64,000 nucleotides of DNA from a virus. This document shows positions 35,209 to 62,770 of this stretch, in pieces. The number at the start of each line of letters is the position of its first letter. The first letter of the stretch is position 1. Made by a program: the position numbers and the translations under genes. The DNA is taken from positions 1 through 64,000 of the IMG/VR virus record IMGVR_UViG_3300044825_002279, one strand, 5' to 3'. The notes under the pieces are model-generated. The model made no database searches. It was not told where the DNA came from and saw only the letters and a list, made by a program, of their open reading frames with translations.

Positions 35209-38200
35209 GCCGCACCCGTTCGACCTGCGGGCGGTCCGGGTGGAGCTGCCCTACGGGCTCACGATCGCCGAGATCCTGGAGGTCGCCTGCGCCGACCCCG
35301 CGCTGCGCCGGACCATGTCGGTCAGGATCGCCGGCCACGACATTCCGGCCGCCGTCTGGCATCGGGTCAGGCCCAAGCCCGGCGTGCTGATCGAGGCGGT
35401 GCCGCTGCCGCTCGGTGGCGACACGCTGCGGACGATCCTGATCATCGCCGTCGTGGCTGCTGCGATGGCTGCCGGTGCCTGGATCGCCGGGCCGGCGCTG
35501 CTGGGTGCCACCGGGGCCACCTTCACCTTCGCGTCGGCCGGCATCGGCGGCGCCCTGACCCTGGGCGGCATGCTGGCCCTCAACGCCCTGATCCCCCCGG
35601 CCAAGCCGCAGATCGACCAGCCGACCACGACCAGCCCCACCTACGGGATCGAGGGCGCCCAGAACTCGGCGCGGATCAACGCCCCGGTCCCGGTCGTCAT
35701 GGGCGTGCACAAGGTCGTGCCGTCCCTGGCCGCCCCGTGGACCACGCTCCTCGACGACGACGACGAGTACCTCTACGGGCTCCTGTGCTGGAGCGTCGGC
35801 CCGGCCTCGGTCTCCTCAATCAAGATCGGCGACACCCCGGTCGAGAACTTCCAGGGCGTGCAGCTCGAGCACTATCTGGGCGACACCACGACCAGTCCGA
35901 CCTTCACGCTCTACCCCTCGCAGGTCACGATCACGGCGGTCTCGGCCCTGCTGCTCAGCGGCCGGCGCCAGGTGCGCCAGACCGACACCGACACCGACTA
36001 CGCCATCCTCGAGTTCCAGTTCCGCGAGGGCGCGATCAAGCTCTCCGATTCCACGGGCGACGAGCTCGGCGTCACGATCACCCTGCGCTACCGCTACCGC
36101 CTGGTCGGCGCCGGCACCTGGAGCGCCGAGACCGAGACCAACGTCGCGGGCAAGCAGGCCAGCCCCAAGCGCACCGCGCGCCGGATCGCGTTCCCCAGCC
36201 GCGGCCAGTACGAGATCGAGGTCTGGAGGGTCACGGGCGATACCAGCAGCAGCTCGATCAACGACAAGCTCTGGTGGGAGAACATCAAGTCGGTGAACTA
36301 CGACCCGCCGGTGCGCAAGTGCCAGGGTCTGGTCCTCACCGCGATCAAGATCAAGGCGTCGAACCAGCTCTCGGGCGTGATCCGCGACCTCAACGGCATC
36401 GTCACGTCCTACCGCCCGGCGTGGAACGGCTCGGCCTGGATCTACGTGCCGACCTCGCAGCCGGCAGCCCTGTTCCGCGGCCTGCTGCAAGGCAACAGCC
36501 TCAAGCGGCCCGTGCCCGACGACGAGATCGACCTCGCCCAGCTCCAGTACTGGGCCACGGTGACGGAGCCGGCTCAGCAGTACTGCAACTTCGTCATCGA
36601 CCGGGACCTGAGCGTCTGGGAGGCGCTCTCGATCATTGCGGCCACCGGCCGGGCCACGCCGACCAGGATCAACGGCAAGTGGTCCGTCGTGATCGACGAG
36701 CCCAAGGGCGTCCCGGCCCAGATGTTCACCGCCCGGAACTGCCGCAACTTCATGGCCCGGCGCATCTTCGCCGACGAGCCCCACGCCCTGCGGGTGCAGT
36801 TCGTCGATGCCGGGGCCGGCTACACGACCCAGACCCGCGACGTCTACTATGACGGCTACGACGCCAGCACCGCGACGGAGTTCGAGGAGGCGGAGTTCCC
36901 CGGGGTCACCAACGCGGACCAGCTCTGGCGCATGGCCCGCTGGCGCATGGCCGAGGGCAGGCTCCGCGCCGAGGCCTACACGTTCGAGACGGACTTCGAG
37001 CACCTGATCGCCACCCGCGGCGACCTCATCATGGTGCAGCACTCGGCGCCGCTCTGGGGACGCTCGGCCGGCCGGATCAGGCGCGTGCTGCTCAATGCCG
37101 GCGGGCTCATGGAGGCCCTGGAGCTCGACGAGGCGGTGGTCTTCGACGGCGCCGGCGACTTCGTGATCCGGATTCGCCTGTCGAACAATGCCCAGATCGT
37201 GCTCGATATCACCGAGCCCGTCGGCGAGACCCGGATCGTCTTTGTCGAGCCTCCGGTCGCCAACAGCTTCGTGATCGCACCGGGCGACCTCTACGTCATC
37301 GGCCTGCAGGACGAGGAGGCGGTCAAGCTCCTGATCCGCGGGATCGAGCCGATCGGCGACCTCGCGGCCCGGATCACCTGCGTCCCGTACCACCCGGCGG
37401 TCTACACGGCCCACCTGGGCACCGTGCCGGATTGGGACCCCAACATCACGGCGGTCCCGGGCCAGGAGGCGCCGATCATCCGGGGCGTCACGTCCGGGGA
37501 TGCCGCCGGCGTGCGAAACGCCGACGGCTCGCTGACCATGCGCGCGCTGGTCCTGCTGTGGGACGACGGCACCCGGCCCCTGGCGACCCTGTCCGGGGTC
37601 GACGTCGCGTGGAAGCGGCTCGACGACGAGGGGCCGTTCAACATCATCCAGGCCCCGCCGGAGGCCACCACGGTGGCTATCGTCGGTGTGCCGGTCGACA
37701 CCACGCTGCGGATCAACGCGCGCTACCGCTTCTCGACCGGGCGCCTGGGCCGGTGGGGCTCGGAGGTCCAACCCTACATCGCACCGCCCACCATCCCGCC
37801 GGCCGACGTCAAGGGCCTGATCATCGACGGGCTCTACCTGCGCTGGATTCACGCCTCGGGCGGCGATCACAAGGGGTTCCTGATCAAGTGGAGCCCGGTC
37901 GGCGGGCAGCCCTGGGAAGAGTGCGAGGACGTCACCGACCAGGCCGTCACCGCGACCGAGTTCCCGACGGCCGCAATCCCGGACGGCGCGCGCCAGATCC
38001 TGATCAAGGCGGTGACGATCCACGGGGTCCAGAGCGTCAGCCCGGCCAGGGCCACGGCCGAGGCCGGGTTCGCCTTCAGCCGCATCGACGTTGGCAACGA
38101 CAGCCTGCGGACCCGCGGCTTCCCCGGCACGGTCGTCAATGCGGTCAAGATCGGCGGCGAGCTGCGCGGGCTCGACAACTCGCTGTTCCTGGACGGCGGC

Positions 38201-38830
38201 GGCCGCTGGCTGGTCCCGGAAGGTGCCGACTGGCTGGAGCCCAGCTGGGCCGAGGTCACGTACATCTGCAACGTCTACACGCCGACCACGCTGCTGCGCA
38301 CCGACCGGATCTACCTGGACTACGACATCCAGGGCGATTTCAAGCTGGCCTACCGGTGGGGCACGGCCGACCTCGCGTTCGCGGCTTTCGTCGATCCGGT
38401 CCCCGACGGCCTGCTGACCGGCAACTTCAACGATCCGGTGGGCAGCTCGGTCGACGAGGAGGTGCTGCTGGTCTGGCGCGCATGGCGCCAGGGCATCCCG
38501 GCCTTGCCGAATCAGCCCCTGCAACTGCGCTGCATCATCGCCGGCGGCGGCACCGTCCAGCCCCTGATTCGCGAGCTTCGGCTGCGGTTCGACGCCGAGG
38601 AAATCCAGGAGACCTTCAGCAATCTCCCGATCGGCCCGGCCAGCACCTTCGTACCCAAGCAGCGGACGTACCGCAAGGTCGCCTACGTTCTCGGCAGTAT
38701 CACCGCCCCCTCCACGGCTACGACCTTCGTCGTCGACGGCAAGGCGCCGAATGCTATCCGCGTTCGGCTCACCAATGCCGCCGGCGCCGACGTCGCGGGG
38801 TTCGCTGACGTCCGCATTGGAGGCGGTTGA
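35105..38830 (+). CDS. gpJ-like tail tip / host specificity protein (1241 aa)
   Basis: Central tail tip protein. A hydrophobic stretch at about 108-135 ('ILIIAVVAAAMAAGAWIAGP') and the following 'INAPVPVVMGVHKVVPSLAA' are typical of gpJ-like proteins. Later regions include 'YDPPVRKCQGLVLTAIKIKA' and 'DELWRMARWRMAEGR'-like segments, then Fn3-like domains (about 780-980) and a receptor-facing C-terminus. The start is uncertain: ATG 35105 gives a long overlap with the previous gene, and TTG 35170 is an alternative. Confidence 0.85.
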   Translation: MTQSCSPSPVSRTGSRATAIQGLSLGALPLYVSHRPHPFDLRAVRVELPYGLTIAEILEVACADPALRRTMSVRIAGHDIPAAVWHRVRPKPGVLIEAVPLPLGGDTLRTILIIAVVAAAMAAGAWIAGPALLGATGATFTFASAGIGGALTLGGMLALNALIPPAKPQIDQPTTTSPTYGIEGAQNSARINAPVPVVMGVHKVVPSLAAPWTTLLDDDDEYLYGLLCWSVGPASVSSIKIGDTPVENFQGVQLEHYLGDTTTSPTFTLYPSQVTITAVSALLLSGRRQVRQTDTDTDYAILEFQFREGAIKLSDSTGDELGVTITLRYRYRLVGAGTWSAETETNVAGKQASPKRTARRIAFPSRGQYEIEVWRVTGDTSSSSINDKLWWENIKSVNYDPPVRKCQGLVLTAIKIKASNQLSGVIRDLNGIVTSYRPAWNGSAWIYVPTSQPAALFRGLLQGNSLKRPVPDDEIDLAQLQYWATVTEPAQQYCNFVIDRDLSVWEALSIIAATGRATPTRINGKWSVVIDEPKGVPAQMFTARNCRNFMARRIFADEPHALRVQFVDAGAGYTTQTRDVYYDGYDASTATEFEEAEFPGVTNADQLWRMARWRMAEGRLRAEAYTFETDFEHLIATRGDLIMVQHSAPLWGRSAGRIRRVLLNAGGLMEALELDEAVVFDGAGDFVIRIRLSNNAQIVLDITEPVGETRIVFVEPPVANSFVIAPGDLYVIGLQDEEAVKLLIRGIEPIGDLAARITCVPYHPAVYTAHLGTVPDWDPNITAVPGQEAPIIRGVTSGDAAGVRNADGSLTMRALVLLWDDGTRPLATLSGVDVAWKRLDDEGPFNIIQAPPEATTVAIVGVPVDTTLRINARYRFSTGRLGRWGSEVQPYIAPPTIPPADVKGLIIDGLYLRWIHASGGDHKGFLIKWSPVGGQPWEECEDVTDQAVTATEFPTAAIPDGARQILIKAVTIHGVQSVSPARATAEAGFAFSRIDVGNDSLRTRGFPGTVVNAVKIGGELRGLDNSLFLDGGGRWLVPEGADWLEPSWAEVTYICNVYTPTTLLRTDRIYLDYDIQGDFKLAYRWGTADLAFAAFVDPVPDGLLTGNFNDPVGSSVDEEVLLVWRAWRQGIPALPNQPLQLRCIIAGGGTVQPLIRELRLRFDAEEIQETFSNLPIGPASTFVPKQRTYRKVAYVLGSITAPSTATTFVVDGKAPNAIRVRLTNAAGADVAGFADVRIGGG

Positions 38831-40819
38831 TTGAGCGCTCGCGCAACCCTGCCGGCCGGCGTCCTGTGGGCCGAGGAGCCGCGCACCCCGTCCCTGGGCG
38901 TGGCCTATTCGGTCTGGGAGGCACTCTACGGGGTGCAGATCGCCGAGCAGGCCGCACCCGACGAGATCACCCTGGTCGAAGGCGTGGCGTCGCTCGCCAC
39001 CTCGGCGCAGGCCCGCCTGCTGCCGCAGATCGCCGACACGCCCGACGAGCTCGACCGGATCGACCTCAGCACGGTCGGCCAGGGTCGCGTGGTGCGTCTG
39101 TCGTGCGGGACCTTCACCGACGAGAGCGGCTCGGCCGCGATCACGATCCGCCACCGTGCGGGCGGGATCATCAACAGCGGCGAGTTCGTCCTGGCCGACG
39201 AGGCCGACATTGTCCTGCAGGACCCGGCCGAGTGGCTGATGGTGCAGCGCATCGGGAGCCAGTTCTGGCAGATCAGGCCGATCGGGTCCGGGCGGATCTC
39301 CCGGCTTTCGCAGAACCTCGACATGCAGGGCTATGCCGCGTTCGGGGGCAGCTACTTCGTCGATAGCCACGCGAGTTCGGCGCGGACCATCACGACCGAC
39401 GACCGCGGCAAGGAATTGGTGAACACGGTCTCCTGCGTCTACACGCTGCCGATGGCACAGCCGGCATCCTCGGCGTTGCAGTGGGCCGTGGGCGACTTCG
39501 TCCTCTTCCGTCAGGAAGGCCCGGCCTGCTCGTTCCGGACCTCGCTGGGCTCCACGCCGCGCAACCTCGACAATCACGACCGCGGCCGCGGCGTCGGCTC
39601 CAAGATGGAGTGCGAGCTGATCCGGGTCTCGCCCACGTTCCTGTGGGCCCTGGTCGGCCAGACCCAGAGTGCGGGCTCGGGGCCGGCGCCGGTCGAGCGC
39701 GTCTATGCCCATGTCGCCAGCGCCAGCACGATCACGACTGACGCCGCGTCGACCGCCTGGAAGAACGCCCAGGCGTTGGTGCACACCCCGGGCTCGAACG
39801 AGCGCTGGCTCTACCTCGCGCACTGTGGCTTCAAGTCCAGCAACTCGCAGAGCAACACCGGTGCGGAGCTGCGATTCCAGCGGGCGGAGATTACGGGCGG
39901 GCCGCAGCTCGGCTGCCCGCGCTACACGGCCCACCAGGATGCGCCGCTGCTGATGACGGCTGCCGCCTATGGCGTGAGCCCCGGGTCCCAGACGCTGAAC
40001 ATCGACGTCAAGGTCGGGAACGGCACCTATGCCGCCTCGGTGTTCTCGCCCGCGATCATCGGCATCCGACTCGCATCGGACGAGTTCCTGAGCCAGGCCG
40101 CCGGCTCCGCGAACAACGTCACCAACACGACCTATGTCGACTTGATCACGATGACGGAGACCTTCGCGGCGGACGATTACTACTTCTTCGTCTGGGGCGA
40201 CTACGGCTCGGTGAATACCCTGGGCGTCACCGTGGCGGTCGAGGTCGACGGCGTGCTCCGCCATGAAAAGGCGATCGGCCGCAACACCGGGCTCAATGGC
40301 TACTTCGGCTTCGTGATCCCGGCCACCTTCACCTCCGGATCGAAGACGATCAAGCTGAAGGTGAAGGGCAACGGCGCCTACAACTCGACCATCCAGAACA
40401 TGGGCATCTGCGCGCTCCGGAAGGCCAACTTCAACGACGTGGCCGCAGCCAACAGCCCCACCGGCGTGACCACGACCGCCACGGCCTATCAGGACTTCAC
40501 CACCGTCTCCAAGTCGCTCACGAGCGGCTGGGACTACCTGGTGCTGGCGGACCTCGACACCAAGCTGGACGTCGAAGGCAGCTCGCCAAGCGTCAAGGCG
40601 CAGATGGTGCGCAACGGTACCCGCGTCGGCAGCGAAAGCCGCACCGTGCCTCGGGCCGCCAATGAATACGCCCCGGTCACCTTCGGGGCCATGGCCGTGC
40701 TGGTGAAGTCGCTCGAAGAGGACACCTTCGCCTTGCAGTACGCGAGCGGCCGAACCACGGACACGGCGGACGTCAAGGAAGGGACCGTGCTGGTCCTGGC
40801 CTTGGCGCCGACCGCCTGA
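38831..40819 (+). CDS. Tail fibre / tip protein (662 aa)
   Basis: TTG start right behind the gpJ-like gene. The N-terminus (LWAEEPRTPSLGVAYSVWEA) may dock to the tip. Residues about 160-330 and 330-660 look like repeated beta domains (TITTDDRGKEL; ERVYAHVASASTITTD; 'YAASVFSPAIIGIRLASDEF'), rich in Thr/Ser/Gly. No enzyme motif seen. The stop overlaps the next ATG. Confidence 0.7.
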   Translation: MSARATLPAGVLWAEEPRTPSLGVAYSVWEALYGVQIAEQAAPDEITLVEGVASLATSAQARLLPQIADTPDELDRIDLSTVGQGRVVRLSCGTFTDESGSAAITIRHRAGGIINSGEFVLADEADIVLQDPAEWLMVQRIGSQFWQIRPIGSGRISRLSQNLDMQGYAAFGGSYFVDSHASSARTITTDDRGKELVNTVSCVYTLPMAQPASSALQWAVGDFVLFRQEGPACSFRTSLGSTPRNLDNHDRGRGVGSKMECELIRVSPTFLWALVGQTQSAGSGPAPVERVYAHVASASTITTDAASTAWKNAQALVHTPGSNERWLYLAHCGFKSSNSQSNTGAELRFQRAEITGGPQLGCPRYTAHQDAPLLMTAAAYGVSPGSQTLNIDVKVGNGTYAASVFSPAIIGIRLASDEFLSQAAGSANNVTNTTYVDLITMTETFAADDYYFFVWGDYGSVNTLGVTVAVEVDGVLRHEKAIGRNTGLNGYFGFVIPATFTSGSKTIKLKVKGNGAYNSTIQNMGICALRKANFNDVAAANSPTGVTTTATAYQDFTTVSKSLTSGWDYLVLADLDTKLDVEGSSPSVKAQMVRNGTRVGSESRTVPRAANEYAPVTFGAMAVLVKSLEEDTFALQYASGRTTDTADVKEGTVLVLALAPTA

Positions 40820-43800
40820 TGCTCACCGTACCCATCGCTGCCATCGTCGGCACCGCGGGCGCGCGCGGCACCCCACCCACGCCAGAGCTGATCTGCGTCG
40901 GCGAGACCATCCGGATGCGGACCACCGATCCCTCGACGGTGAGCTTCAACCCGGTGCTCAACGACGTGACCAACGACGGCGCCACCGTCGACATCGTCAG
41001 CCTGGACCCCCTGGCGGCGACGGTCGGGACGGTAGGCCGCACCGGCAACGTCGTGACGTTCACCAAGGCCCCGGGATACGCCGGGACCTTCGATCTGATC
41101 TATCACGCGCGCTCGAGCACCGGAGCTGAGGCCGACGGCATCATCAGCTTCATCGTCGACGGCACCACCAGCGTCGACTTCGTCACCGGTGTCGCTGATA
41201 CCCTGGACATCGAGATCGGGGCCACGACGCGCGACTTCGACGTGCTCGCCAACGACACCGGCAGCGGGCCGATCGAGATCACTCCCGGCAGCATCGTACA
41301 GCCGACCGGCGGGCCGACGCTCAGCATCGTGGGCGGGATGCTGCGGGTGACCCGGAACTCGGCGGCGATCGGCAGCTATGCCGGCGGCTCCTATCGGCCG
41401 CGGCTGGTCTCCGGTGCGGTGACTGCCTCGCCGGTGGCGCTCACCGTACGCGTGGTCTCGGCCACCGTCGTGGCGCCAGACTTCACCGTGGTGGTCCCGA
41501 TCACCGCGGCATCGCCGTTCCCGATCGACGCCCTGGCGCGCTGCAGCGGCTCCGGCCCGATCGAGCTCCACCCCACGGGGTTGATCGCGCCGACCGGCGC
41601 CAGTGACACCGCGGCGATCGTCAGTGGCAAGATCAACTACACCCGCGGCACGACTCCGGTCGGCGTCTACACCATGGGCTACAAGGCCCGGCTGGTCGCC
41701 ACGCCCTCGATCGAGGACGCCGGAACGATCACGATCAGGGTGATCGCGAACTGGCACCAGGGCCGGCCCCGCCGCGGCGGCCGCGCCTGGGCCACCGGCT
41801 ACCGCGAGATGGGCGCCTCGGCCGCAACCTGGATCGCGAACAACGGCAACGCCGACGTTTATTGCGGCGTCATCGCCCGGCCGGGGACCTCCGACACTAC
41901 ATGGGAGGGCATCTGGGGCGGGCTCGACAGCGAGGCTCCCACCGCAGTTACGGTGCAGGCCAGCTCGCAGCTCGACTGGTCGACCGGCGACTTCGGGACG
42001 CACGCCCGCGCCCTGCCGATCGACGGGGCCTTCCTGCTGGCCGAATGTGAGTTGTTCCCGGCGAGCTACCAGCCCGCCAGTGCCACCGACCTGCGCATCT
42101 GGGACCTGATCGACGGCGGGACCCTGGACGCCGGCTACCTGCGCATGGGCGCCCGCCTGCGCAAGAACCTCCTCGCCCTGGGCTGGTGGGACCTGGATCG
42201 CTTCGTCCTGGTGCCGTGTCCTGGCATGAACGTCGCGGGCGTGATCGGCCGCGTCTTCTCCGCCACCCGCACCCGCCACAAGACTGCGATGCAGCGGGTC
42301 TACGCCAAGCTGCGCGAGGGCTTCGGCAGCCGCCTGCGCATCGCCCACGTCGTCGGCCGGAAGGCGCATCTGGGCGGGACCGACCTCTCGGACTGGATTC
42401 CATCCAACGCAGCCGGCGGCGTCGATGCGGTCGGGCTCAACTTCGATCCCAGCGCCCTGGTGACCAACGAGGCAACCTTCGACAAGTACCTGTCCGGTTG
42501 GGACAGCGCCAGCTACGGGATGATCGACGACGTCCTGCGCGCGGCCGCGACCCTGTCGGTTCCGGTCATCGTGCCTCGCTGGGCGCCGCTCGCGCGCGTC
42601 ACCGCCGGCGAGAACCCGTGCCCGGTCGCCGACGTCGTGGCGCAGCAGTTCTCCAAGTTCCTCCGCGCCCAGGCGGCGGCCGGCAACCTCGTGTGCGACT
42701 GCATGAGCGGCCCCGAGTTGCTCAACAGCACGGGCTATGCTGGCACCGATACCGCGGGCATCGCGGCCTGGACCCGGATGGTCGCGGACATCAGGGCGAT
42801 CTGGAAGGGCACGCCGCTCAGCCCGATCCCGAGCCTCACGCTGGTCGCGACCAGCGTCACCATGGTCGACGGCGACAACCAGGAGGACGCCAACCCGCTC
42901 GCGGCCGCCACCGGCTCGGAGTCGGTGGGCGTCCGGCGCGTGACCGAGGTCCCCGCCGGGATGACAGCCTCGGTCGTCGGCAGCGGCCCCGCAGCCAGGG
43001 TGCGGATCAATCGCGGCACCGCGGCCCCAGGCACCAGAACGGTGCGGGCCGAGATGGCCCTGGGCTCCGTCCCTTACTTCACCGACGCGCAGATCGACGT
43101 CAACCTGCAGGGGCCGCTGTCGACAAGCGATCTGTCGCCCGAAAACCCGTTCAACTATCTCAGCGCCCATCACCGCCCGCTTGGTGCCGACCTCCAGTTT
43201 GGCATCCCGCCGAGCGTAAAGTTCGACAGGATAGGGGCTGCAAGCGCGGCCTCGGATTACACCGGCGGGACCAACACGCGCGGCCGCATCGCCATGGTCG
43301 GCGCCATGGTGCTGGCGGGCGAGGACAAGCCCGTCCACGTCGTCACATCTAGCATGAAAACCGGCCACTGGCTGAAGGACGCCGACAGCACGCCGACTAC
43401 CGGCTACAACATGCCTGCCCCGCCGGCCACCTACGACATCAAGGTCCCGGCTCCGGCCGATGTGGTCCCGCCCTACCCGACGGATGGTGACGCCGAGGTC
43501 GCGTTCTGGCCGCGCGACGGCGGCACTGTCGACATGGTCGATACCTTTTTCCACGCCCGGTACACCGGCACGCGCGGGGACGGCAGCTACGATTTCCTGG
43601 CCGACAAGCGCAGCAGCTGGCCTCTGGGCGGAACCGACGTTCCCGATGGATCGCCGGGCGATGCCGGCCCGAGCGCCTCGCGCCTGCGGCATCCCTACGG
43701 CACGGTAACGGGATTGGAGTGCAACGCAGCCACTCCTCTGATCCAGCACACGATGCGGCTGTACTGCACCCGGCACAGCCACAAGAACACGGTCGGCGAC

Positions 43801-45603
43801 CCCGCAACAGTCCCAGCCGACATCGCCCGGACCGTCGCCGCCAGCGCGCCGCCAGAAGCGCACATCATGGGTGATCGCGCCGTGTGGGCGGCCTACGGCA
43901 AGGACAAGTGGAACCCGCCGTTCGATGACCCCACCACGACGTATTGCGACAATCGCGGGGACATTCCCTACGGCACGATCCTGACGCTCAAGGAAGCCGA
44001 CTACAACACGCTGAGGGCGACCTCGGGGCTCAACGCCCTTCAGCTCGCGATGATCGATGCCTGGTATCTCTACGGCGGCCGGGTCTGCGACGGGCACGGG
44101 GACTTCGTCACCAACCCGACCCCGGCCGACGGTCGCGGCCCGAGGTTGGCGGTGCTGCGCATAAGCACGGACGGCAAGATCAGCTCCGCCAACGAGGCGA
44201 AGTTGAACGAAGTCCTGGCTCTGATCTTCCCCCACCTCTGGCCGGTCAAGAACCCTCGCTACCACTTCGCCGAGAGCGAGGTCTACAGCGTGGTCGGCAG
44301 CGACTTCTACGGCTACCCCTATTGCGGCGGCGGCGGCCCACGCCACCCGACCAAGTCCATCAACACGGCATGGGACCGGCCGACGGTCACACCACCGCCG
44401 CCGCCGAGCGGCGGGGTGTCGATCGACAACCCGTTCAACTTCAAGAGCGCCCATCACCGGCCGATCGGCGCCGGTGTGCGCTTCGGCATCCCGCCCGCGG
44501 TGGACTACAACGACACTCGCTCGGTCAACACGACCAGCGCCTACACCGGCGGCAATGAGGGCGAGCGCGGCCGAATCAAGAACTTCGGCCAGATGCAGTT
44601 CGGCGCCGACAAGCCGATGTACTCGGTCACTGCGTCGATGACGTCGCGGACGATCAGCAAGACTGCCGAGAGCAAGCCGGCAAGCGGGCACAACCTGCCC
44701 ATCACGATCAAGATCCCGGATCGCACCACGGTCGACCCGCCCTACCCGACCGACCATGACGGCGTGATCGCGTTCTGGCCGCGCAACGGTGGCACCGCCG
44801 ACATCTGCGACAGCTTCTTCCAGTTCCGGGACTCCGCGACCCACGCCTACAGGGCGTCCAAGGTCAACAGCTGGCCCATCGCCGGCATGGACGCCTATGA
44901 CAACGGGACGGGCGACCCTGGCGCGTCGGCGACCAAGTTGCGCCACCCCTACGGGGTCGTCATGGGCCACGAGCTCAACGGCGGCTCCGACGGTACGCCG
45001 GCGATACGCCACGCCCTGCGGCTGTTCGTGACCCGGCATAGCCACAAGAACCCCGGCCCCGTAGCTCCCGCCTCGACGCACCTGTTCAACCTCAAGAACG
45101 TCTGGCCGGCCCACGGCAAGGATGGCTTCTCGAGCGTACCCGGCGAGGACAATCAGGGCGACACGCCCTATGGGACGCTCTTCACGCTGAAGACCGCCGA
45201 CTTCAACACTCTGATGGCCCGGCCGGGGCTCACCCTGGCCCAGAAGGCCATGATCGAGTGCTGGTACTACTATGGCGGCCGCGCGGTCGACGGGCACGGC
45301 GATTCGATCCCGAACCCGACTCCAAGCGACGGCCGCGGCGCCAGGCTGGGCACCATCCGGATCAGCGACGACGGGCGGATCAAGAACTCGGTCGTCAGCG
45401 AACTGAACGCCATCTTCCCCCTCATCTTGCCGCTGCTGTGGCCGGTGTTCAACCCGCGCTACCACTTCCGCGACACCGACGAGCTGTTCAACTCTCCCGG
45501 CAACCCAGGGCACGGCTATTACTATGTCGGCGGCGGCGGCCCTCGGAGCGCCACCAAGTCCATCAACACCGCCTACGACCGGCCCACGGCCGCGGGGATC
45601 TGA
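40819..45603 (+). CDS. Giant fibre protein with cadherin-like, barrel-like and two tandem 'AHHRP' domains (1594 aa)
   Basis: Domain order: cadherin-like repeats (about 1-310; FDVLANDTGSGPIEI and its repeat ALARCSGSGPIELHP); an alpha/beta domain (about 311-670; WATGYREMGASAATWIANNG, 'GSRLRIAHVVGRKAHLGG', GVDAVGLNFDPS) that reads like a glycosidase-type TIM barrel; a linker beta domain (about 670-770); then two copies of a 390-400-residue domain (775-1188 and 1203-1594). The copies share NPFN..SAHHRP.GA, LRHPYG, TRHSHKN, D-PYGT...LK, YYGGR..DGHGD, NPRYHF and GGGGPR..KSINTA. A third copy is the protein at 55566. Probably a receptor-binding or surface-glycan-degrading fibre. Confidence 0.8.
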   Translation: MLTVPIAAIVGTAGARGTPPTPELICVGETIRMRTTDPSTVSFNPVLNDVTNDGATVDIVSLDPLAATVGTVGRTGNVVTFTKAPGYAGTFDLIYHARSSTGAEADGIISFIVDGTTSVDFVTGVADTLDIEIGATTRDFDVLANDTGSGPIEITPGSIVQPTGGPTLSIVGGMLRVTRNSAAIGSYAGGSYRPRLVSGAVTASPVALTVRVVSATVVAPDFTVVVPITAASPFPIDALARCSGSGPIELHPTGLIAPTGASDTAAIVSGKINYTRGTTPVGVYTMGYKARLVATPSIEDAGTITIRVIANWHQGRPRRGGRAWATGYREMGASAATWIANNGNADVYCGVIARPGTSDTTWEGIWGGLDSEAPTAVTVQASSQLDWSTGDFGTHARALPIDGAFLLAECELFPASYQPASATDLRIWDLIDGGTLDAGYLRMGARLRKNLLALGWWDLDRFVLVPCPGMNVAGVIGRVFSATRTRHKTAMQRVYAKLREGFGSRLRIAHVVGRKAHLGGTDLSDWIPSNAAGGVDAVGLNFDPSALVTNEATFDKYLSGWDSASYGMIDDVLRAAATLSVPVIVPRWAPLARVTAGENPCPVADVVAQQFSKFLRAQAAAGNLVCDCMSGPELLNSTGYAGTDTAGIAAWTRMVADIRAIWKGTPLSPIPSLTLVATSVTMVDGDNQEDANPLAAATGSESVGVRRVTEVPAGMTASVVGSGPAARVRINRGTAAPGTRTVRAEMALGSVPYFTDAQIDVNLQGPLSTSDLSPENPFNYLSAHHRPLGADLQFGIPPSVKFDRIGAASAASDYTGGTNTRGRIAMVGAMVLAGEDKPVHVVTSSMKTGHWLKDADSTPTTGYNMPAPPATYDIKVPAPADVVPPYPTDGDAEVAFWPRDGGTVDMVDTFFHARYTGTRGDGSYDFLADKRSSWPLGGTDVPDGSPGDAGPSASRLRHPYGTVTGLECNAATPLIQHTMRLYCTRHSHKNTVGDPATVPADIARTVAASAPPEAHIMGDRAVWAAYGKDKWNPPFDDPTTTYCDNRGDIPYGTILTLKEADYNTLRATSGLNALQLAMIDAWYLYGGRVCDGHGDFVTNPTPADGRGPRLAVLRISTDGKISSANEAKLNEVLALIFPHLWPVKNPRYHFAESEVYSVVGSDFYGYPYCGGGGPRHPTKSINTAWDRPTVTPPPPPSGGVSIDNPFNFKSAHHRPIGAGVRFGIPPAVDYNDTRSVNTTSAYTGGNEGERGRIKNFGQMQFGADKPMYSVTASMTSRTISKTAESKPASGHNLPITIKIPDRTTVDPPYPTDHDGVIAFWPRNGGTADICDSFFQFRDSATHAYRASKVNSWPIAGMDAYDNGTGDPGASATKLRHPYGVVMGHELNGGSDGTPAIRHALRLFVTRHSHKNPGPVAPASTHLFNLKNVWPAHGKDGFSSVPGEDNQGDTPYGTLFTLKTADFNTLMARPGLTLAQKAMIECWYYYGGRAVDGHGDSIPNPTPSDGRGARLGTIRISDDGRIKNSVVSELNAIFPLILPLLWPVFNPRYHFRDTDELFNSPGNPGHGYYYVGGGGPRSATKSINTAYDRPTAAGI

Positions 45604-45606
45604 GCC

Positions 45607-46638
45607 ATGCCGAGCTTTCCCGCTCCCGGCAGCTTCGCGGTCCGCGCCGGGACCAACGCCACCCGCGGGCCGCTGTTCGAGAACTTCCTGGCGGCCACCA
45701 AGAACGTGGTCGGCGGCGAGGGCCAGGCCACGGTCAACATCGTCGGCGGGGTGATCTCGCCCGTGACGTGGCGGGTCTTCGTCGACGTCGAGGGCGGGGC
45801 CGCGGCCTCGGACGATCTGGACCTGGTCTCGGCTGGCTCGGAGTTCCACGGCGGGGCGGTGATCGTGATCTCGGCCGCGGCCGACACCCGCACGATCGTG
45901 GTGCGGAATCTGGCCGGCAACATCATCCTCAAGTCGGCCACGTTCTCGCTCAAGGGCGTCTGGGCCCGGCTGTGGCTGCAGTATGACGGGACCAACTGGG
46001 TCGAACTCGCGCGCGACTACGGCCAGGACCGGGTGCAGGAGCGCACCGTCCTGGGGATCACGGGTGCAGCGCCGGTCTCTGGCCAGCCCGCGACCTACAG
46101 CCACGCGACCGGGGCGGAGGCCCAGGCGGGGACGAGCGAGACCGCCACGATGACACCGCTCGCCGTCGCGGTCGCGATGGGGACCGCAGCCCTCGCGATC
46201 GACGGCCGGCCGGTGGCCGCGTCCCTCGTGGGCGGGGACAACTTCCTGCTGTCGCGCAGCGGCACGCTCTACAAGATCAGCATCGCGGCCCTGCTGGCGC
46301 CGAGCTTCATCGCCTACGCTTCGACGGGCGAGCTCGGCATCGCGTCGGGCGCCACCTCGTTCGCGGCCCACAGCATGGGCGGCCAGCCGACCCTGGTCCG
46401 GGCCTACTACCGCTGCAAGACCGCCGAGGGCGGCTACAATGTCGGGATGGAAGTCCCGGTCGAGTGCATGATCCACGAGGAGGGCGTGCGCCGGGTCACG
46501 TTCGGCGCCGACGCGACGAACTACTACTACCAGATGTCCAGCACGGCCGCGGCGGTCCGGGGCATCAACCGCACCAGCGGGGCGGCGTTCAACCTGACCA
46601 ATGCCAACTGGCGGTTGTTCCTGCGCATGTGGCGATAG
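45607..46638 (+). CDS. Tail fibre protein (343 aa)
   Basis: 'GPLFENFLAATKNVVGGEGQ' and a beta-rich first half, then a collagen-poor fibre region with 'VSGQPATYSHATGAEAQAGT' and a C-terminal knob (YYYQMSSTAAAVRGIN). Similar small fibres often end tail gene blocks. No enzymatic motif. Confidence 0.65.
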   Translation: MPSFPAPGSFAVRAGTNATRGPLFENFLAATKNVVGGEGQATVNIVGGVISPVTWRVFVDVEGGAAASDDLDLVSAGSEFHGGAVIVISAAADTRTIVVRNLAGNIILKSATFSLKGVWARLWLQYDGTNWVELARDYGQDRVQERTVLGITGAAPVSGQPATYSHATGAEAQAGTSETATMTPLAVAVAMGTAALAIDGRPVAASLVGGDNFLLSRSGTLYKISIAALLAPSFIAYASTGELGIASGATSFAAHSMGGQPTLVRAYYRCKTAEGGYNVGMEVPVECMIHEEGVRRVTFGADATNYYYQMSSTAAAVRGINRTSGAAFNLTNANWRLFLRMWR

Positions 46639-50087: not shown

Positions 50088-53000
50088 ATGGCAGCCGCCG
50101 CTCCGGTTCTGCTCGGCACGCCCTCGGGCGCTTCGGCCGCCACGGTCACCTCCGGCTCGGTCACGCCGACCCCGCACCACGTCATGGTGGTCCAGGGCTG
50201 CGCCCGCGTGAGCCTCGGAACGGCGCCGGCGTCCATCACCCTGACCAACTCCGCCGGTTGGACCTTCACCCAGATCGACGACTTCCCGTCGGCCAGCGGG
50301 GTGAGCCCTAGCCTGCGGCAGACGATATGGGTGATCGAGGTCCCGGACCCTTCCGTGTCGCTCACGGTCACGCTGAATTGCGTGGGCGCCAACACGATGC
50401 AGATCACCATGTTCGAGGTCCCGGGCGTCCTCGCCTCGGTGAGCAATCTGGGTCACGACGACAGCACCGCCGGTGATCCGGCCGTGACGATCAGCGCTCC
50501 GGCGACGAGCAGCCTGGTGCTCGGGATCGCGGCTTTCGCCGGCACCACGTCGCCGGCGACGTCGCCGCTGGCCACCGAGCTGGTCGAGACGATCGCGAAC
50601 CAGATCACGTCGGAGATCCGCTACACGCTGGGCAGCGGCCCTTCCTCGGCGACCTGGAGCACCGCGAACGCGCGCTCGGTGGGCACGCTGATCGAGTTCG
50701 TCGCCAGGACGGCCTTCAGCATGGCGGTGGCGGCCGGCAGCTTGGCGGCGGCCGGCCAGGCGCTCGGCGCCAGAACGGACCGCCGGGTGGCCGTGGCGGC
50801 CGGTTCGTGCACGGCCTCCGGCCAAGTCCTCGCCCTGCGCGCGGCGCGCATCATGGCGCTCGACGCCGCGACCTTCACCCATGCCGGCCAGGCGCTCGCA
50901 CTCCGGGCCGATCGTAGACTGGCGCTTGCGGCAGCGGCTTACGTGGCGACCCCGCAGGACCTCACGATCCGCCCGCCGATCCGGATCACGCTCGCGGCCG
51001 GTTCGTTCGCCGCCACCGCCCAGCCGACAACCCTGCTGCTGGCCCGCAGTCTGGTGGCCGCGACCGGAAGCTACGGCATCACGGGCCCGCCTCTGGCCCT
51101 GCGGCTCGGCCGCGCCATGGCTACGGCCGCCGGCGCGTTCACGGCTACCGGGCGCGACATCTTCCTGCTGACCCAGGACCCGAGCGCGATCCAGCGCCCG
51201 ACCGTCCTGACCGCCAAGGGCGTCTCGGCCAACGCCCTCACCACCGACAATTTCCCCACGACCCCTGGCGCGCTCCTGATCGTCCAGGCGGCGTCCCGCC
51301 TCGCATCGGGCACGGCGCCGGACACGATCTCGATCACGGGCTCGGCCGGCCTGACATGGGAGCCCGAGGACGATTTCCCGTCGGCGAGCGGCACCAGCCC
51401 GAGCTCGCGCCAGACGGTCTGGACCGCGGTGGTGCCGACCGACGCTACCGTGATGAACGTCGCGCTTGCCTGCACCAATGCCGCGCAGCTCGGCGTCGTG
51501 GTCTACGAGATCCCCGCCGGGGCTTCGCCGACGATCACCAATGTCGGCCACGCCGCCAGCAGTGTCGGCGATCCGTCGGCCAGCATATCGACGCCCAAGA
51601 CCCCGAGCATGGTCCTGGGGCTCGCGGCCTTCGCGGGCACCAGCGCTCCGTCGGCCTCGCCGCTGGCGCGCGCGATCCGCTCCGCCGGCCTGACCTCGAC
51701 GGGCCTCTACCTCGAGGCGCGATACACGCTCGGGACCGGGCCTTCCTCGGCCGCCTGGACGTCCGCGAACGCCCGGTCGGTCGGAGCGCTCCTGGAGATC
51801 GAGAGCGCCGGCTACCAGCTGGCGCTTGAGGCAGGTTCGTTCGCTGCCGCCGGTCAGGACCTGGCGTTGCGGGCCGGGCGCAGCCTCGCCGTGGCCGCCG
51901 GTTCGTTCGCCGCTACCGGGCAGGCCCTGGCGCCGCAGCTGGCCCGCCGGATCGGGCCGGTGGCCGGGGCGCTCACCCTCGCCAGCGACGGGCTGATCCT
52001 GCGTCGTGGCCGCCCGGTGATCGTCGCGGCCGGATCGTTCACGCTCACCGGGCGCGCGGTGGCGCTCAAGTTCGGGCGCAACCTGTCGCTGGCCACAGGG
52101 GCGTTCACGCTCTCGGGGCAGGCGCTGGCGCTGCGGGCCGGGCGCACGTTGCCCCTGGCGGCCGCCGCGTTCGCGTTCACCGGGGGCAGCCTTACCCTCG
52201 CGGTCGGCAAGCGGTTCCCGGTCGAGGCCGGGACTTTCACGCTCGCGGGGCAAACGCTGGCGACCCGGCTCGGGCTGGCGCTGCCGCTGGGCGCCGGATC
52301 GTTCACGCTTGCGGGCGTCGCGCTCACGCTGCGCTACGGCAAGGGCATCGCGGTCACCGGGGGCGAGTTCGCCGCCTCGCCGGTCGACCTCATCCTGCGG
52401 GCCGATCGCGTGCTGCCAGCCGAGGCGGCGGCGTTCGCGGCCACCGGGGAGGATCTGGTCCCGCGCAAGGGTTACTATCTCAGTCCGGCCGCCGGCGACT
52501 TCACGGTCGCGGGGCAGGATCTCGGCGGGCGCCTGGGCTATACGATCAGGATCGATCCGGCCGCGTGCGAGGTCGTGGGCTACGATCTGGCGCTGGTGCA
52601 CGGCTACCCCGTGGCGCTGGGCGCCGGGGACTTTGCCGCGGCCGGCCAGGACCTGGTGCTGCGCGGCGGGTTCAATCTCCCGGTTGAGCGCCTCGACCTC
52701 AGTATTGCGACCGAATCGCTGGGCCTCGGCGCAGCCCGCATCGTTCAGATCGAGGCCGGATCGTTCGCCCTGACCGGCCAGGACCTTTCTCCTCGCGCCG
52801 GCCGGATGCTGTTGCCCGCCCCGGGCGCGATCTCCCTATCCGGCCAGGACCTGGCGCTTGAGGCGGGGCGCGTACTGCCGGCCGGTGCCGGGGCGTTCCT
52901 GGCCACACCGCGCGAGACGCCGCTCACCCGCAGCCGCCTGTTCCCGTTGGGCGCTGGATCCTTCCCGCTGCAATCGGACGGCCTCGGCTTCGTCGTCGAG

Positions 53001-54224
53001 CGCCGGATGGCCGTCGAGCCCGGGGCGTTCCTGGTGGCGGGCGTCGCGGTCACCCTGGAGCGACCTCGGTTGCTGGCGCTGGATCCCGGCGAGTTCACCG
53101 CGGCCGGCCAGGATCTCGGGTTCCCGGTCACGCGAGCGCTGCTGCCGGGCGTCGGCGAGTTCACGATCTCCGGCCAGGACCTCGGCACCGCAGCGGCGCG
53201 CCGGATCGGGCTTGCGGCCGTCGCCGTCGCCGTGTCGGGCCAGGATCTGGCGCTGGCGGCCGCGCGCGAGCTCGCGCCAGAGGCGGGGGCATTCACGCTC
53301 GCCGGCCAGTCAGCTTCACTGCGGCCCGATCGGTCCCTGGCCGTCGGACCCGGTACCGTGGATCTCACCAGCGGCGACCTGGTGTCCCGGCGCGGGGTCT
53401 CCCTGGAGGTCGCGGCGGGCGAGTTCGCCGCCACGGGGCTGGACCTCGTGTTCCGGGCCGATCGGCGGCTGGCGCCCGAGCCCGGCGCGTTCACGGCCGC
53501 GCCCGAGGACACCGGCCTTTTCCACGGTCCCCGGATGTCGGTCGAGGCCGGCGAGTTCGCGCTCTCGGGCGGCGATCTCGTGGCCGGTCGCCACATCACG
53601 AGCCCGGTCGAGCCCGGCGAGTTCGCGCTCGCCAGCGTCGCGGCGATCATGCGAGCCACCCGAAGCATCGACCTGTGGCGCGGCGTGCTCGAACTCGGCG
53701 CCGGCTCTCTCACCCTCACCCTGGCGCGGTCGATCACCTTTCGCCGGCGGGTCAATCTCGCGGGCGCCTTCGACCTGCGGCGCGAACTCGCCGGCAGCGT
53801 CCGGCAGCCGATCCCGGCCAGCTTTCGGCTGCGCTACGTTTTCGCCGCGTCCACGGTCCGCCCCGCAACAGGTGGCGATGTCCCGATGGTCGTGTGTCCC
53901 GACGAGACGATCCAGCGAGCCCAGGATGTGATCCTGGAGTTCCTGGTCGCCGGTGGCGCCGGGGCCGCGGCCGCGCAGTGGTACCTGGCGCCCAGCCGCG
54001 GCACCGCCGCCGCCAGCCGCCTGCTCACCGTCGTGAGCCCGACGAACGTCACGATCACCGACGTGGGTGCCGACGCCAAGGTCGAGATCCTGATCACCAG
54101 CACCCAGACCGAGAGCCTGCCGGTCGGCCGGTTCTTCCATCAGCTCTGGGTCGAGGATGCGCAAGGCCATGACGTGCCCGTGGCCGAGGGCGTGCTGGTC
54201 GTCGACGACAGTCTGAAGAACTAG
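50088..54224 (+). CDS. Giant repeat protein: 36 x 22-residue repeats, duplicated head domain (1378 aa)
   Basis: Residues 1-212 and about 367-578 are two versions of one beta domain (ITLTNSAGWTF...DDFPSASG...SPS.RQT; FAGTTSP...ATSPLA). Each is followed by 22-residue repeats of form (A/P)(L/V)xAGxFxxxGQDLxLRxGRxL: seven copies (213-366) and twenty-nine (579-1216). A 160-residue C-terminal domain (VCPDETIQRAQDVILEFL) resembles baseplate/fibre modules with Ig character. The regular 22-residue period suggests a beta-solenoid fibre. Probably a long adhesive virion fibre, expressed with the collagen-like gene downstream. Confidence 0.8.
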   Translation: MAAAAPVLLGTPSGASAATVTSGSVTPTPHHVMVVQGCARVSLGTAPASITLTNSAGWTFTQIDDFPSASGVSPSLRQTIWVIEVPDPSVSLTVTLNCVGANTMQITMFEVPGVLASVSNLGHDDSTAGDPAVTISAPATSSLVLGIAAFAGTTSPATSPLATELVETIANQITSEIRYTLGSGPSSATWSTANARSVGTLIEFVARTAFSMAVAAGSLAAAGQALGARTDRRVAVAAGSCTASGQVLALRAARIMALDAATFTHAGQALALRADRRLALAAAAYVATPQDLTIRPPIRITLAAGSFAATAQPTTLLLARSLVAATGSYGITGPPLALRLGRAMATAAGAFTATGRDIFLLTQDPSAIQRPTVLTAKGVSANALTTDNFPTTPGALLIVQAASRLASGTAPDTISITGSAGLTWEPEDDFPSASGTSPSSRQTVWTAVVPTDATVMNVALACTNAAQLGVVVYEIPAGASPTITNVGHAASSVGDPSASISTPKTPSMVLGLAAFAGTSAPSASPLARAIRSAGLTSTGLYLEARYTLGTGPSSAAWTSANARSVGALLEIESAGYQLALEAGSFAAAGQDLALRAGRSLAVAAGSFAATGQALAPQLARRIGPVAGALTLASDGLILRRGRPVIVAAGSFTLTGRAVALKFGRNLSLATGAFTLSGQALALRAGRTLPLAAAAFAFTGGSLTLAVGKRFPVEAGTFTLAGQTLATRLGLALPLGAGSFTLAGVALTLRYGKGIAVTGGEFAASPVDLILRADRVLPAEAAAFAATGEDLVPRKGYYLSPAAGDFTVAGQDLGGRLGYTIRIDPAACEVVGYDLALVHGYPVALGAGDFAAAGQDLVLRGGFNLPVERLDLSIATESLGLGAARIVQIEAGSFALTGQDLSPRAGRMLLPAPGAISLSGQDLALEAGRVLPAGAGAFLATPRETPLTRSRLFPLGAGSFPLQSDGLGFVVERRMAVEPGAFLVAGVAVTLERPRLLALDPGEFTAAGQDLGFPVTRALLPGVGEFTISGQDLGTAAARRIGLAAVAVAVSGQDLALAAARELAPEAGAFTLAGQSASLRPDRSLAVGPGTVDLTSGDLVSRRGVSLEVAAGEFAATGLDLVFRADRRLAPEPGAFTAAPEDTGLFHGPRMSVEAGEFALSGGDLVAGRHITSPVEPGEFALASVAAIMRATRSIDLWRGVLELGAGSLTLTLARSITFRRRVNLAGAFDLRRELAGSVRQPIPASFRLRYVFAASTVRPATGGDVPMVVCPDETIQRAQDVILEFLVAGGAGAAAAQWYLAPSRGTAAASRLLTVVSPTNVTITDVGADAKVEILITSTQTESLPVGRFFHQLWVEDAQGHDVPVAEGVLVVDDSLKN
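50724..51185 (+). repeat. 22-residue (66-bp) repeats, first array, 7 copies
   Basis: Begins AVAAGSLAAAGQALGARTDR; each unit is exactly 22 residues in the aligned copies. The last copy is degenerate and runs into the second head domain. Confidence 0.8.
51822..53735 (+). repeat. 22-residue (66-bp) repeats, second array, 29 copies
   Basis: Begins ALEAGSFAAAGQDLALRAGR. The units keep length without insertions: 29 x 66 = 1914 bases fill the interval exactly. The conserved positions are AG.F at 4-7 and GQDL at 11-14. Confidence 0.8.
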
Positions 54225-54693: not shown

Positions 54694-55569
54694 ATGGCGA
54701 TCTTCGACCGGGCCCAGCAGGCCTTCAACGATGCCGTCGACGCCGAGATAGGGGACCGGATCGCCTCGGCCGTGACCCCGATCGAGGAAGTCGCGGCCGG
54801 GGCTGCCCGGGATGCGACCGAGGCGTTGGCCGTGGCGCGGGGAGTGCCCGCCGGCCCCCAGGGCGAGCCTGGGGAGCCAGGGCCTATTGGCCCCCAGGGC
54901 GAGCCGGGACCGGCCGGCGCCCAGGGCCCGGAGGGGCCGCAGGGCCCGGAGGGGCCGCAGGGCCTGCGTGGGCCGGCCGGTCCCGATGGCGCGCCAGGAC
55001 CGCAGGGCGAGCGCGGCCCGACCGGCCTGCCCGGTCGCGATGGCCTGGACGGGCTGCCCGGCGCTCGCGGCGAGGTCGGGCCGGCCGGGCCGACGGGCGA
55101 GCGTGGGCCGGAGGGTCCGCAGGGCCTCATCGGGTCGCAAGGGGTTCCTGGCCCCGCGGGCCCGGCCGGTCCCCAAGGCTCCGCAGGCCCGGCTGGCACC
55201 GTCGGCCCCACTGGCGCCGACGGTGCGCCAGCCACGGTCACGCTCGAGTTCGGACCGGTGACGGCGTTCCCCTACGTGCCCAACGCCGCCGACGCGGTGG
55301 GCGGGCAGATCCTGCTGGCGCCGGCGGCCACAGCGCAGGTCATTCTCCCGGCCGGGCTCCACTCGGCTGGTGCGCCTGCCGGGTTCCGGAGCTGGCGCAA
55401 CGTCGTGTTCCTGATCGAGCCCAACGTCAGCGTGACGTTCATCGCCGGCGTGGGTGCGACCCTGCGGGCGACTGCGGACCTGGCGCCGATCTCGAGCTAC
55501 GTCGCGACCGGACCGCTGCGCGCGGTGGTCATGCAGACCAACGGCACCGACTGGCGGCTGCTGCGGTGA
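54694..55569 (+). CDS. Collagen-like fibre protein (291 aa)
   Basis: Short helical N-terminus (1-53), then 42 uninterrupted Gly-X-Y triplets (54-179) with [11 protein letters not shown] units, then a C-terminal beta domain (about 180-291) that can seed trimer formation ('[20 protein letters not shown]'). Trimeric collagen-like phage fibres use this design. GTGA overlap with the third 'AHHRP' gene suggests both belong to one fibre. Confidence 0.85.
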
Positions 55570-56783
55570 CCCCGCTGGCACGCCAGCTTGTCGGCCGCGA
55601 CCCGGACATGGCGCGGCTGCTGGTCAATCCGTACAACCGGTGGAGCGCGCATCATCGCCCGCTCGGCCGCGGCATCCGCTACGGCATCCCGCCCGCGACG
55701 CTGCAGGCGAGGGTCGCCGATCCGATCTACGTGCCGGGGATCGAGGGGTCGCGCGGCCGGCTGGCGAACGCCACCATGTTCCGCCTGGGCCTCAACAAGC
55801 CCGGCGTGAAGCACGCCTATTGGGTCGAGCCCGGGCACCCGATGCGGGAGGTCGAGTTCCAGGCGCTGGCGCCAGGGGGCGGGCAGGGCAACGGCGACGG
55901 CCTGCCGGTGACGCTGCGGCTGCCGCCCCAGAACGCGACCACCTTCTACCCGCCCTATGCCGGCAGTCCGACCAACCCGGCCGCCGACGATCGCGACAAC
56001 GAGATCCTGTTCTTCCCGCGCGGCGGCCTGCAGATCGACATGGCCGACTGCTTCCCGCAGTTCGTCTACGACAGCAAGCGGCCCGGGACGGCCGGCGGCA
56101 AGGCGTCGGCTCGATCGCGCCTGAGCTTCGGCCTCGGTGGCCGCGACGTCCGCGACCGGTGGGATGATCCCGGCAGCTGGGGCCCGAGCGCCATGGGCTG
56201 GCGGCTCCTGGGCGGGGTGCTGCGGCGCGCCGAGTGCGACGTGTTCTCGGACACGCCGCGGCCGGTCAACCACCTCCTGATCGCGACCGCCACCCGGCAC
56301 AGCAACGCCGGGGCGCCGGCCAGTGCCCATATCCTGTCGCGCTTCGTCTCCTACCCGGGCTGGGGCACCGATACCCCGCTCCTGGCCGGCGAGAACCTGG
56401 GCGACCTGCCCTACGGCTCGATCCTCACGATCCGCGACATCGATCTGGCCCTGCGCGAGCTCCTGGGCCTTAGCCCGTTCGGCAAGGTGCTGTTCGACAC
56501 CATAGCGGGTTACGGCCTCTGCCTCGCCGACGGCCAGGGCCAGACGGTCGACGGTGGCGGCGTTGTGCAGATGCGGGTCGATTGGGGTTGGGTGCCGGGC
56601 TCACCCGAGCATGCGCAGGTCGATGCCGACCTGATCAAGCTGCTGCCGCTGCTCTACCCCGTGTTCAACCCGCGCGGCCATGTCGGCGGCGACGCGCCCG
56701 AGATCTGGACCGACGGCCTGCCCTACGTCGGAGGTGGCGGCCCAAGGCTCGCCGGCAGCATCAACACGGCCTGGGATGCCTGA
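55566..56783 (+). CDS. Stand-alone 'AHHRP' domain protein (405 aa)
   Basis: GTG start overlaps the collagen-like gene. From about residue 20 the protein matches the two domains in the 1594-residue fibre: [56 protein letters not shown] and GGGGPR..SINTAWD. Conserved His, Arg, Asp and Gly residues suggest a binding or enzymatic site. As the last late gene it may be the tip of the collagen-like fibre. Function unknown. Confidence 0.75.
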
Positions 56784-56792
56784 CCGGCCGAG

Positions 56793-57584
56793 CTAGGCGA
56801 AGATGTCCAGGTGGTCGATCGGCAGGTGCCCCAGCACGTTGCTGAGCTCGATCGCGTCGTTCTCGACCCGGATCGTGAGCGCGCCTCGTGTCGGGTCGTA
56901 GACGACGTCGAGCCCGCCACCATCGCCGTCGGCGTCGGTCAGGGCACCATCATCGTTGGTGTCGAGCCAGTCCTTGGCCGTGGCGTCATCGGCCATCAGG
57001 GTGCCGTCCTCGTAGTAGATCGAGAGGCTCAGCCGCTCGCCCGGCGTGTAGTCGGCCCACAGGACCGTCATGCCGTCGGCGCCGACCCGGAACGCCATGT
57101 CGACCTGATCGGCGCCCTCGTTGCCGTAGATCACGGTCGGGCCCTGCATGTCCTCGAGGGTGAAGCTGGGGTGCAGGCTGCCGTCGCTGGCCTGCGATTG
57201 CCACCCGAAGTCGTCCCACTCGCCGGTCGAGATCACGTCGTCGCCGGCGCCGGCCTCGGTCACGCCATGGCAGAGCACGATCGTGTCGTTGCCATCCCCG
57301 CCATAGACCAGGGAGAAGTTCTGCCCGGCCACGATCAGGTCGTCGCCGCGCCCGCCGTCGATGAAGGCATAGCCGTTGCCGGCGCTGAGGCTGTCCTGGC
57401 CGTCCTTGCCCCAGAGCTCGTCGTAGCCGGCGCCTCCGTCGATCGCGTCAGCACCCAGCCCGCCATAAAGCCGGTCATTGCCGCCAAACCCGAAGATCAC
57501 GTCGTCCCCGGCCTTGCCCGCGATGAGCTCTCCGGCCTCGGTGCCGAGCAGGGTGTCGGCCCTGGCGGTGCCCTGGATGGCCAT
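56793..57584 (-). CDS. RTX-type calcium-binding repeat protein (263 aa)
   Basis: Residues about 20-110 carry glycine-rich nonapeptides (AGKAGDDVIFGFGGNDRLYG, GGRGDDLIVAG, GGDGNDTIVL) that form a calcium-binding beta roll. The rest is acidic (DTNDDGALTDADGDGGG). GGGGAG lies 7 bases before ATG 57584. Encoded against the late operon and ending 9 bases from it, so it needs its own promoter. RTX proteins are usually exported by type I systems, and the last residues (LDIFA) would fit such a signal. Probably a lysogen-expressed surface or secreted protein. Confidence 0.82.
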   Translation of the reverse strand: MAIQGTARADTLLGTEAGELIAGKAGDDVIFGFGGNDRLYGGLGADAIDGGAGYDELWGKDGQDSLSAGNGYAFIDGGRGDDLIVAGQNFSLVYGGDGNDTIVLCHGVTEAGAGDDVISTGEWDDFGWQSQASDGSLHPSFTLEDMQGPTVIYGNEGADQVDMAFRVGADGMTVLWADYTPGERLSLSIYYEDGTLMADDATAKDWLDTNDDGALTDADGDGGGLDVVYDPTRGALTIRVENDAIELSNVLGHLPIDHLDIFA

Positions 57585-60181: not shown

Positions 60182-60360
60182 CGCGCTGCCCTCCCTTCCG
60201 CATCCTCGATCCACCGTAGCACCGCCTCGCGGCGGAATGTCCAGACCCGGCCGAGCCGGGCCGCACTCGGGATCTCGCCACGGGCCGCCATCTGCTGCAC
60301 CCCGCGCTCGCCCAGCCCGGTGAGTGCGACGACGTCGGCGACGCGGATGCGGGTCACCAT
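60058..60360 (-). CDS. Excisionase-like DNA-binding protein (100 aa)
   Basis: MVTRIRVADVVALTGLGERG plus 'RLGRVWTFRREAVLRWIEDA' is a MerR/AlpA-type winged helix of the excisionase (HTH_17) class. The C-terminal 40 residues are Ser/Gly/Arg-rich and are encoded over the start of int. Likely directs excision or represses int. Overlaps its upstream neighbour by a few bases. Confidence 0.75.
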   Translation of the reverse strand: MVTRIRVADVVALTGLGERGVQQMAARGEIPSAARLGRVWTFRREAVLRWIEDAEGRAARCRTISTGAARSGGSGSPSPVASIAEAYARVFGSSPRSGPG

Positions 60361-62640: not shown

Positions 62641-62770
62641 CCTTTTTAGCCTTCCGTTCCTCGCGTTCGATCTTCTTCGCCACCTTCGCAGCGGCCTCGC
62701 CTTTGCCCTTGGGGCGGTAGGCCAGAACGTGCGTCGTGAAGGCGTCGAGGGCTTTCAAAATCTCGGTCAT
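62627..62770 (-). CDS. Small basic passenger protein behind transposase (47 aa)
   Basis: ATG overlaps the transposase stop (ATGA). MTEILKALDAFTTHVLAYRP followed by a Lys/Glu/Arg helix. Ends inside the terminal repeat. Possibly a DNA-binding accessory; unknown. Confidence 0.6.
   Translation of the reverse strand: MTEILKALDAFTTHVLAYRPKGKGEAAAKVAKKIEREERKAKKDVGE

Follow-up and report, generated by a model that had tools for sequence, protein, structure and literature searches.

A candidate polysaccharide-active tail-tip domain present three times in one phage, from a wide family of phage tail and bacterial proteins

A domain of roughly 390 residues occurs three times in the window (the whole 64,000-nt stretch of viral DNA that was analysed): two tandem copies end a side fibre, and a third is a separate protein encoded beside a collagen-like fibre. 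The domain is best read as a carbohydrate-active tail tip (probability about 0.5), whose copies would dock the virion on a polysaccharide at the surface of the host, probably an alphaproteobacterium, and would most likely cleave that polysaccharide through a conserved D/E/H/D/D set of residues. Profile comparison and a tblastn match make it a divergent branch of a wide family that is nameless in the libraries searched. Fibre-tip receptor and depolymerase domains are already known as a kind; the family has no name in those libraries, no solved structure that we found and a wider spread than first observed. The genes concerned are as follows.

40819-45603, + strand, tail fibre ORF of 1594 aa (ORF list, translation)
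43141-44388, + strand, domain copy 1, in the C-terminal part of the fibre (BLASTP, multiple alignment)
about 44410-45600, + strand, domain copy 2, at the end of the fibre (BLASTP, whole-record search)
45607-46638, + strand, 343-aa protein directly 3' of the fibre (58% identity with the counterpart from phage G001)
54694-55569, + strand, collagen-like tail fibre gene, 291 aa (Collagen PF01391, E 2e-21; PHROGs tail fibre families)
55566-56783, + strand, domain copy 3, a stand-alone gene of 405 aa with a GTG start (BLASTP, whole-record search)
59177-60214, - strand, tyrosine integrase, beyond copy 3 (PF00589, E 6e-25; phrog_1, E 3e-54)

The first-pass annotation had described three diverged copies at these coordinates, and the ORFs, BLASTP and a search of the whole 64,344-base record confirmed them, with exactly three domain places in the record, each at E 2e-39 or better. 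In BLASTP, copies 1 and 2 align over their full length at 353 bits with 48% identity, and copies 2 and 3 at 147 bits with 34% identity (E 4e-45). The multiple alignment puts copies 1 and 2 at 52%, and copy 3 stands at 35-36% to the two fibre copies; the similarity among the three is far beyond chance. The fibre consists of an N-terminal Ig-like (Big_9-like) region, where the Big_9 match is weak, a conserved region of about 360 aa (41734-42810, + strand), a linker and the two tandem copies. The 360-aa middle region, 55% identical in G001 and 76% in G002, was presumed to resemble a degenerate glycoside-hydrolase barrel; a PDB profile search with it gave no match, and the glycoside-hydrolase-like reading is unsupported by that search. 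Family searches with the 343-aa protein behind the fibre also gave none.

The domain had been noted in one phage only, with a survey of others proposed. Three further carriers (G001, G002 and G003), IMG/VR phages like the window phage, emerged from scans of 2.9 million viral contigs; the four phages together hold nine copies. G001 has a single copy, at the end of a 1170-aa fibre that is syntenic with the window fibre and 50% identical to it over 1222 columns; G002 has one fibre copy and two adjacent stand-alone genes; and G003 has one copy ending a different fibre and one stand-alone gene. The number and arrangement of copies thus vary, and a copy at the C-terminus of a fibre is constant in all four phages. 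Scans of genome contigs found no domain relative. In the maximum-likelihood tree, both window fibre copies group with the G002 fibre copy (100/99), and a second group (97/98) joins the window stand-alone copy, the G003 fibre copy and G002 stand-alone 1. From these groupings, the window copies represent two old lineages plus one duplication inside the fibre lineage, with the fibre-type and stand-alone-type lineages older than the split of the related phages; a recent triplication in the window phage is ruled out by the tree. In G002 and G003, the last stand-alone gene is followed by a related gene whose product starts M-IY-VD--A (L011:14640-16057; L027:118-1464, - strand), possibly a beta-helix protein, and the two genes seem to travel as a pair.

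The first-pass annotation did not recognise the family, and for curated libraries this holds: the domain had no match at or near the curated cut-offs of Pfam, PHROGs and NCBIfam, and even at thresholds as loose as E 10 single copies drew chance matches alone. PDB sequence searches with profiles or single proteins likewise gave chance matches, and the confident match to a characterised family that would have overturned the claim did not appear. By tblastn, copy 2 and the G001 copy matched nothing in GenBank phages or plasmids. The G003 stand-alone copy, the sole phage-domain query to reach Gordonia phages, matched a Gordonia phage protein at E 9e-5. The matched domain occurs in 69 Gordonia phage records, where the usual annotation is minor tail or hypothetical protein and, in one case, glycosylhydrolase. 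By tblastn it also turned up in proteins encoded on plasmids or chromids of Rhizobium, Mitsuaria, Bradyrhizobium, Kitasatospora and Tsukamurella. We had presumed the domain to resemble secreted 'YGMIVADNG' proteins; a typed-in example of such a protein matched nothing, and the proteins found in Kitasatospora and Tsukamurella later confirmed the resemblance.

The profile of the nine phage copies was compared using hhalign with a profile of ten Gordonia phage and bacterial sequences, giving a probability of 98.8% over 275 columns with E 1e-16, an E-value from a single comparison that is uncalibrated against a database. Against the bacterial members alone the probability was 98.2%, and the controls (reversed profile and unrelated profiles) reached 0.1-0.9%. 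Six motif blocks were aligned alike and in order across three MAFFT modes; the wider-family motifs read S-WN-P / I-HAL / WPA..D / YG-YVVD / GGPG, and the window copies have HH for the WN of the first block. Together, the profile comparison, its controls and the agreement of the MAFFT modes make homology well supported at an identity of about 20%. Gordonia phrog_17388 (Guacamole gp30, Confidence gp29) and Stormageddon gp18 have the same six blocks in the same order; like the window fibre, these are phage tail proteins, and their predicted folds may match. They differ in that the Gordonia members carry the domain mid-protein, followed by about 300 residues, whereas it is C-terminal or stand-alone in the window, and in that the window domain has long insertions and its own SAHHRP, TRHS and GGGGPR..SINTA motifs. 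Stormageddon gp18 (L039:2629-4545), the member annotated 'glycosylhydrolase', lies just after the capsid gene region and adjoins a gene annotated ADP-ribosyltransferase.

Structure prediction and fold search, proposed for copy 1 in the first-pass annotation, yielded a medium-confidence model of a relative that lacks a match among solved structures, and no confident model of a window copy. AlphaFold2 with four sequences gave a pLDDT of 30; with 21 sequences, G002 stand-alone 2 (342 aa, 34-36% identical to the window copies) was modelled at pLDDT 75.6 and pTM 0.79 as a mixed alpha/beta domain with neither coiled or repeat structure nor a beta-helix. A search of this model against 350,542 solved chains returned none at E 1 or at a probability above 0.04, and the PDB fold matches listed (expansin and others), all at 0.04 or less, were disregarded. 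In the viral structure library, five phage proteins were matched confidently. The strongest match, a protein labelled parallel beta-helix repeat, has E 6e-19 and a TM of 0.71 by query length. Another is the model of a Gordonia phage minor tail protein (E 1.4e-12, TM 0.60), both structures being predictions and the alignment having included Gordonia sequences. Judged from the model of this relative, the domain fold may be new. Parallel beta-helix tailspike depolymerases share with the window domain the position at the fibre tip and the presumed glycan target, and one predicted match carries their label; unlike them, the domain is modelled, on the relative, as mixed alpha/beta, and it had no beta-helix match in the PDB.

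Five polar residues recur among 20 diverse phage and bacterial members: D (20/20), E (17/20), H (19/20), D (18/20) and D (20/20), the first D standing in GDxxV, the second in PAxxxD and the third in YGxxxxD. The set is complete in all three window copies, as listed here by the first base of each codon.

copy 1, + strand: D 43489, E 43717, H 43747, D 43903, D 44089
copy 2, + strand: D 44758, E 44971, H 45010, D 45121, D 45289
copy 3, + strand: D 55995, E 56232, H 56271, D 56370, D 56529

Two G002 copies deviate: in stand-alone 1 the conserved E is replaced by M, and in stand-alone 2 the E and H give way to Q and Y. The motifs called invariant in the first-pass annotation are so within the window phage, but SAHHRP and TRHS vary among the nine copies: SAHHRP becomes SPCNTP or AFCHRP in 2/9, and TRHS is altered or missing in the G001 copy, the stand-alone copy of G003 and stand-alone 2 of G002. 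Both are motifs of the subfamily. A common functional site, also suggested there, remains plausible, with D/E/H/D/D plus P-x-G and YG, rather than SAHHRP and TRHS, as its deeply conserved part.

The bacterial members are unnamed secreted proteins (Mitsuaria WP_067283622.1, Tsukamurella WP_139286264.1 and those of Rhizobium rhododendri and Kitasatospora), most of which have the D/E/H/D/D set, although the first motif is D-x-H rather than D-x-E in many. They differ from the window copies in being bacterially encoded, several of them in polysaccharide clusters or fused to CBM60/PA14. The Mitsuaria homologue lies inside a complete exopolysaccharide cluster that includes EpsD, EpsE, EpsF, a tyrosine autokinase, exosortase B, EpsI, an O-antigen ligase, acyltransferases, a pyruvyl transferase, several glycosyltransferases, a flippase and a UDP-glucose/GDP-mannose dehydrogenase. 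The Rhizobium homologue stands among glycosyltransferases and a Wzy-type O-antigen ligase, and the Tsukamurella homologue is fused to CBM60 and PA14. Genes of unknown function in exopolysaccharide clusters are often trimming lyases or hydrolases. The three contexts point to a polysaccharide as substrate or ligand. A literature search on member accessions of the wider family returned no paper, and a member with tested activity was not found.

A glycan-active tip is favoured by the fibre-end copy in 4/4 phages, the homology to Gordonia minor tail proteins and bacterial secreted proteins, the polysaccharide contexts, the conserved polar residues and the phage proteins matched by the model; against it stand the replaced E and H of G002 stand-alone 2, the replaced E of stand-alone 1 and the lack of a solved enzyme like the model. 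A glycan is quite likely to be the ligand, and for cleavage over mere binding the odds appear about even; different copies may serve different glycan variants, and the wider receptor range suggested in the first-pass annotation may follow from them. A structurally new class of polysaccharide-cleaving enzyme, common to phage fibre tips and bacterial exopolysaccharide-processing proteins, is a more tentative proposal; such a class would have escaped notice for want of a curated family or solved structure that includes it.

The main rival, which we consider rather unlikely, is a pure glycan-binding (lectin- or CBM-like) receptor-binding domain whose diverged copies give avidity and recognise glycan variants. 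A binding module would suit the tandem repeats and the occurrence on separate fibre proteins, one relative lacks the conserved E and H and another the E, and CBM60, PA14 and the exopolysaccharide clusters fit binding as well as cleavage. Yet acidic residues and a histidine are kept from actinobacteria to phages at about 20% identity, which would be more usual for a catalytic or metal site, and a stand-alone protein of secreted type in an exopolysaccharide cluster generally suggests an enzyme. A structural, trimerising or chaperone-like fibre-tip domain that lacks glycan specificity is improbable: its C-terminal place in fibres and the failure of known enzyme folds to match agree with such a role, but bacterial homologues sit in polysaccharide clusters outside any phage tail, the Gordonia members carry about 300 residues after the domain, and the mixed alpha/beta model has neither coils nor repeats. 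That the domain is an isolated phage orphan and its Gordonia and bacterial link an artefact is very improbable and already largely refuted, since against the low identity and the uncalibrated hhalign E-values stand the near-zero scores of reversed and unrelated profiles, the independent tblastn match, the rise in pLDDT from 30 to 75.6 with 21 sequences (though for a different, shorter copy) and the match of the model to a separately computed Gordonia phage model, whose relatives were in the alignment.

Receptor-binding tips and depolymerases set which bacteria a phage infects, and the majority are unrecognised. No Pfam or PDB counterpart of the present family was found, although dozens of Gordonia phage records carry it, as do siphophages of alphaproteobacterial type and exopolysaccharide clusters of bacteria. 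A single structure with a single activity assay would provide annotation for all members and possibly a new glycan-degrading fold, and the copy number of one to three per phage is a natural test of extra tips against host range.

For the carrier phage itself, one protein of the tail module is lambda-J-like (phrog_31, E 3e-108), with best GenBank matches in a Bradyrhizobium phage and next mostly in Rhizobium and Rhodovulum phages; from these matches, the host is probably alphaproteobacterial. A GH108-type endolysin gene lies downstream of the fibre, and the copy 3 gene begins within the end of the collagen-like fibre gene. The tyrosine integrase past copy 3 indicates that the phage is probably temperate. 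The integrase is flanked by an RTX (haemolysin-type calcium-binding repeat) protein (56793-57584, - strand) and an IS1595-type transposase (62767-63684, - strand), which may be host DNA beyond the prophage end. Long antisense open frames opposite the fibre and J genes (40534-46476, - strand, 1980 aa; 35816-40264, - strand, 1482 aa) are most likely a by-product of high-GC codon usage. A 1378-aa protein of the tail region (50088-54224, + strand) is made up of short repeats of the type 'AAGSFAATGQDLALRAGRxL', of which there are dozens, and is conserved in G001 (L004:12619-15810, 1063 aa) with a different repeat number.
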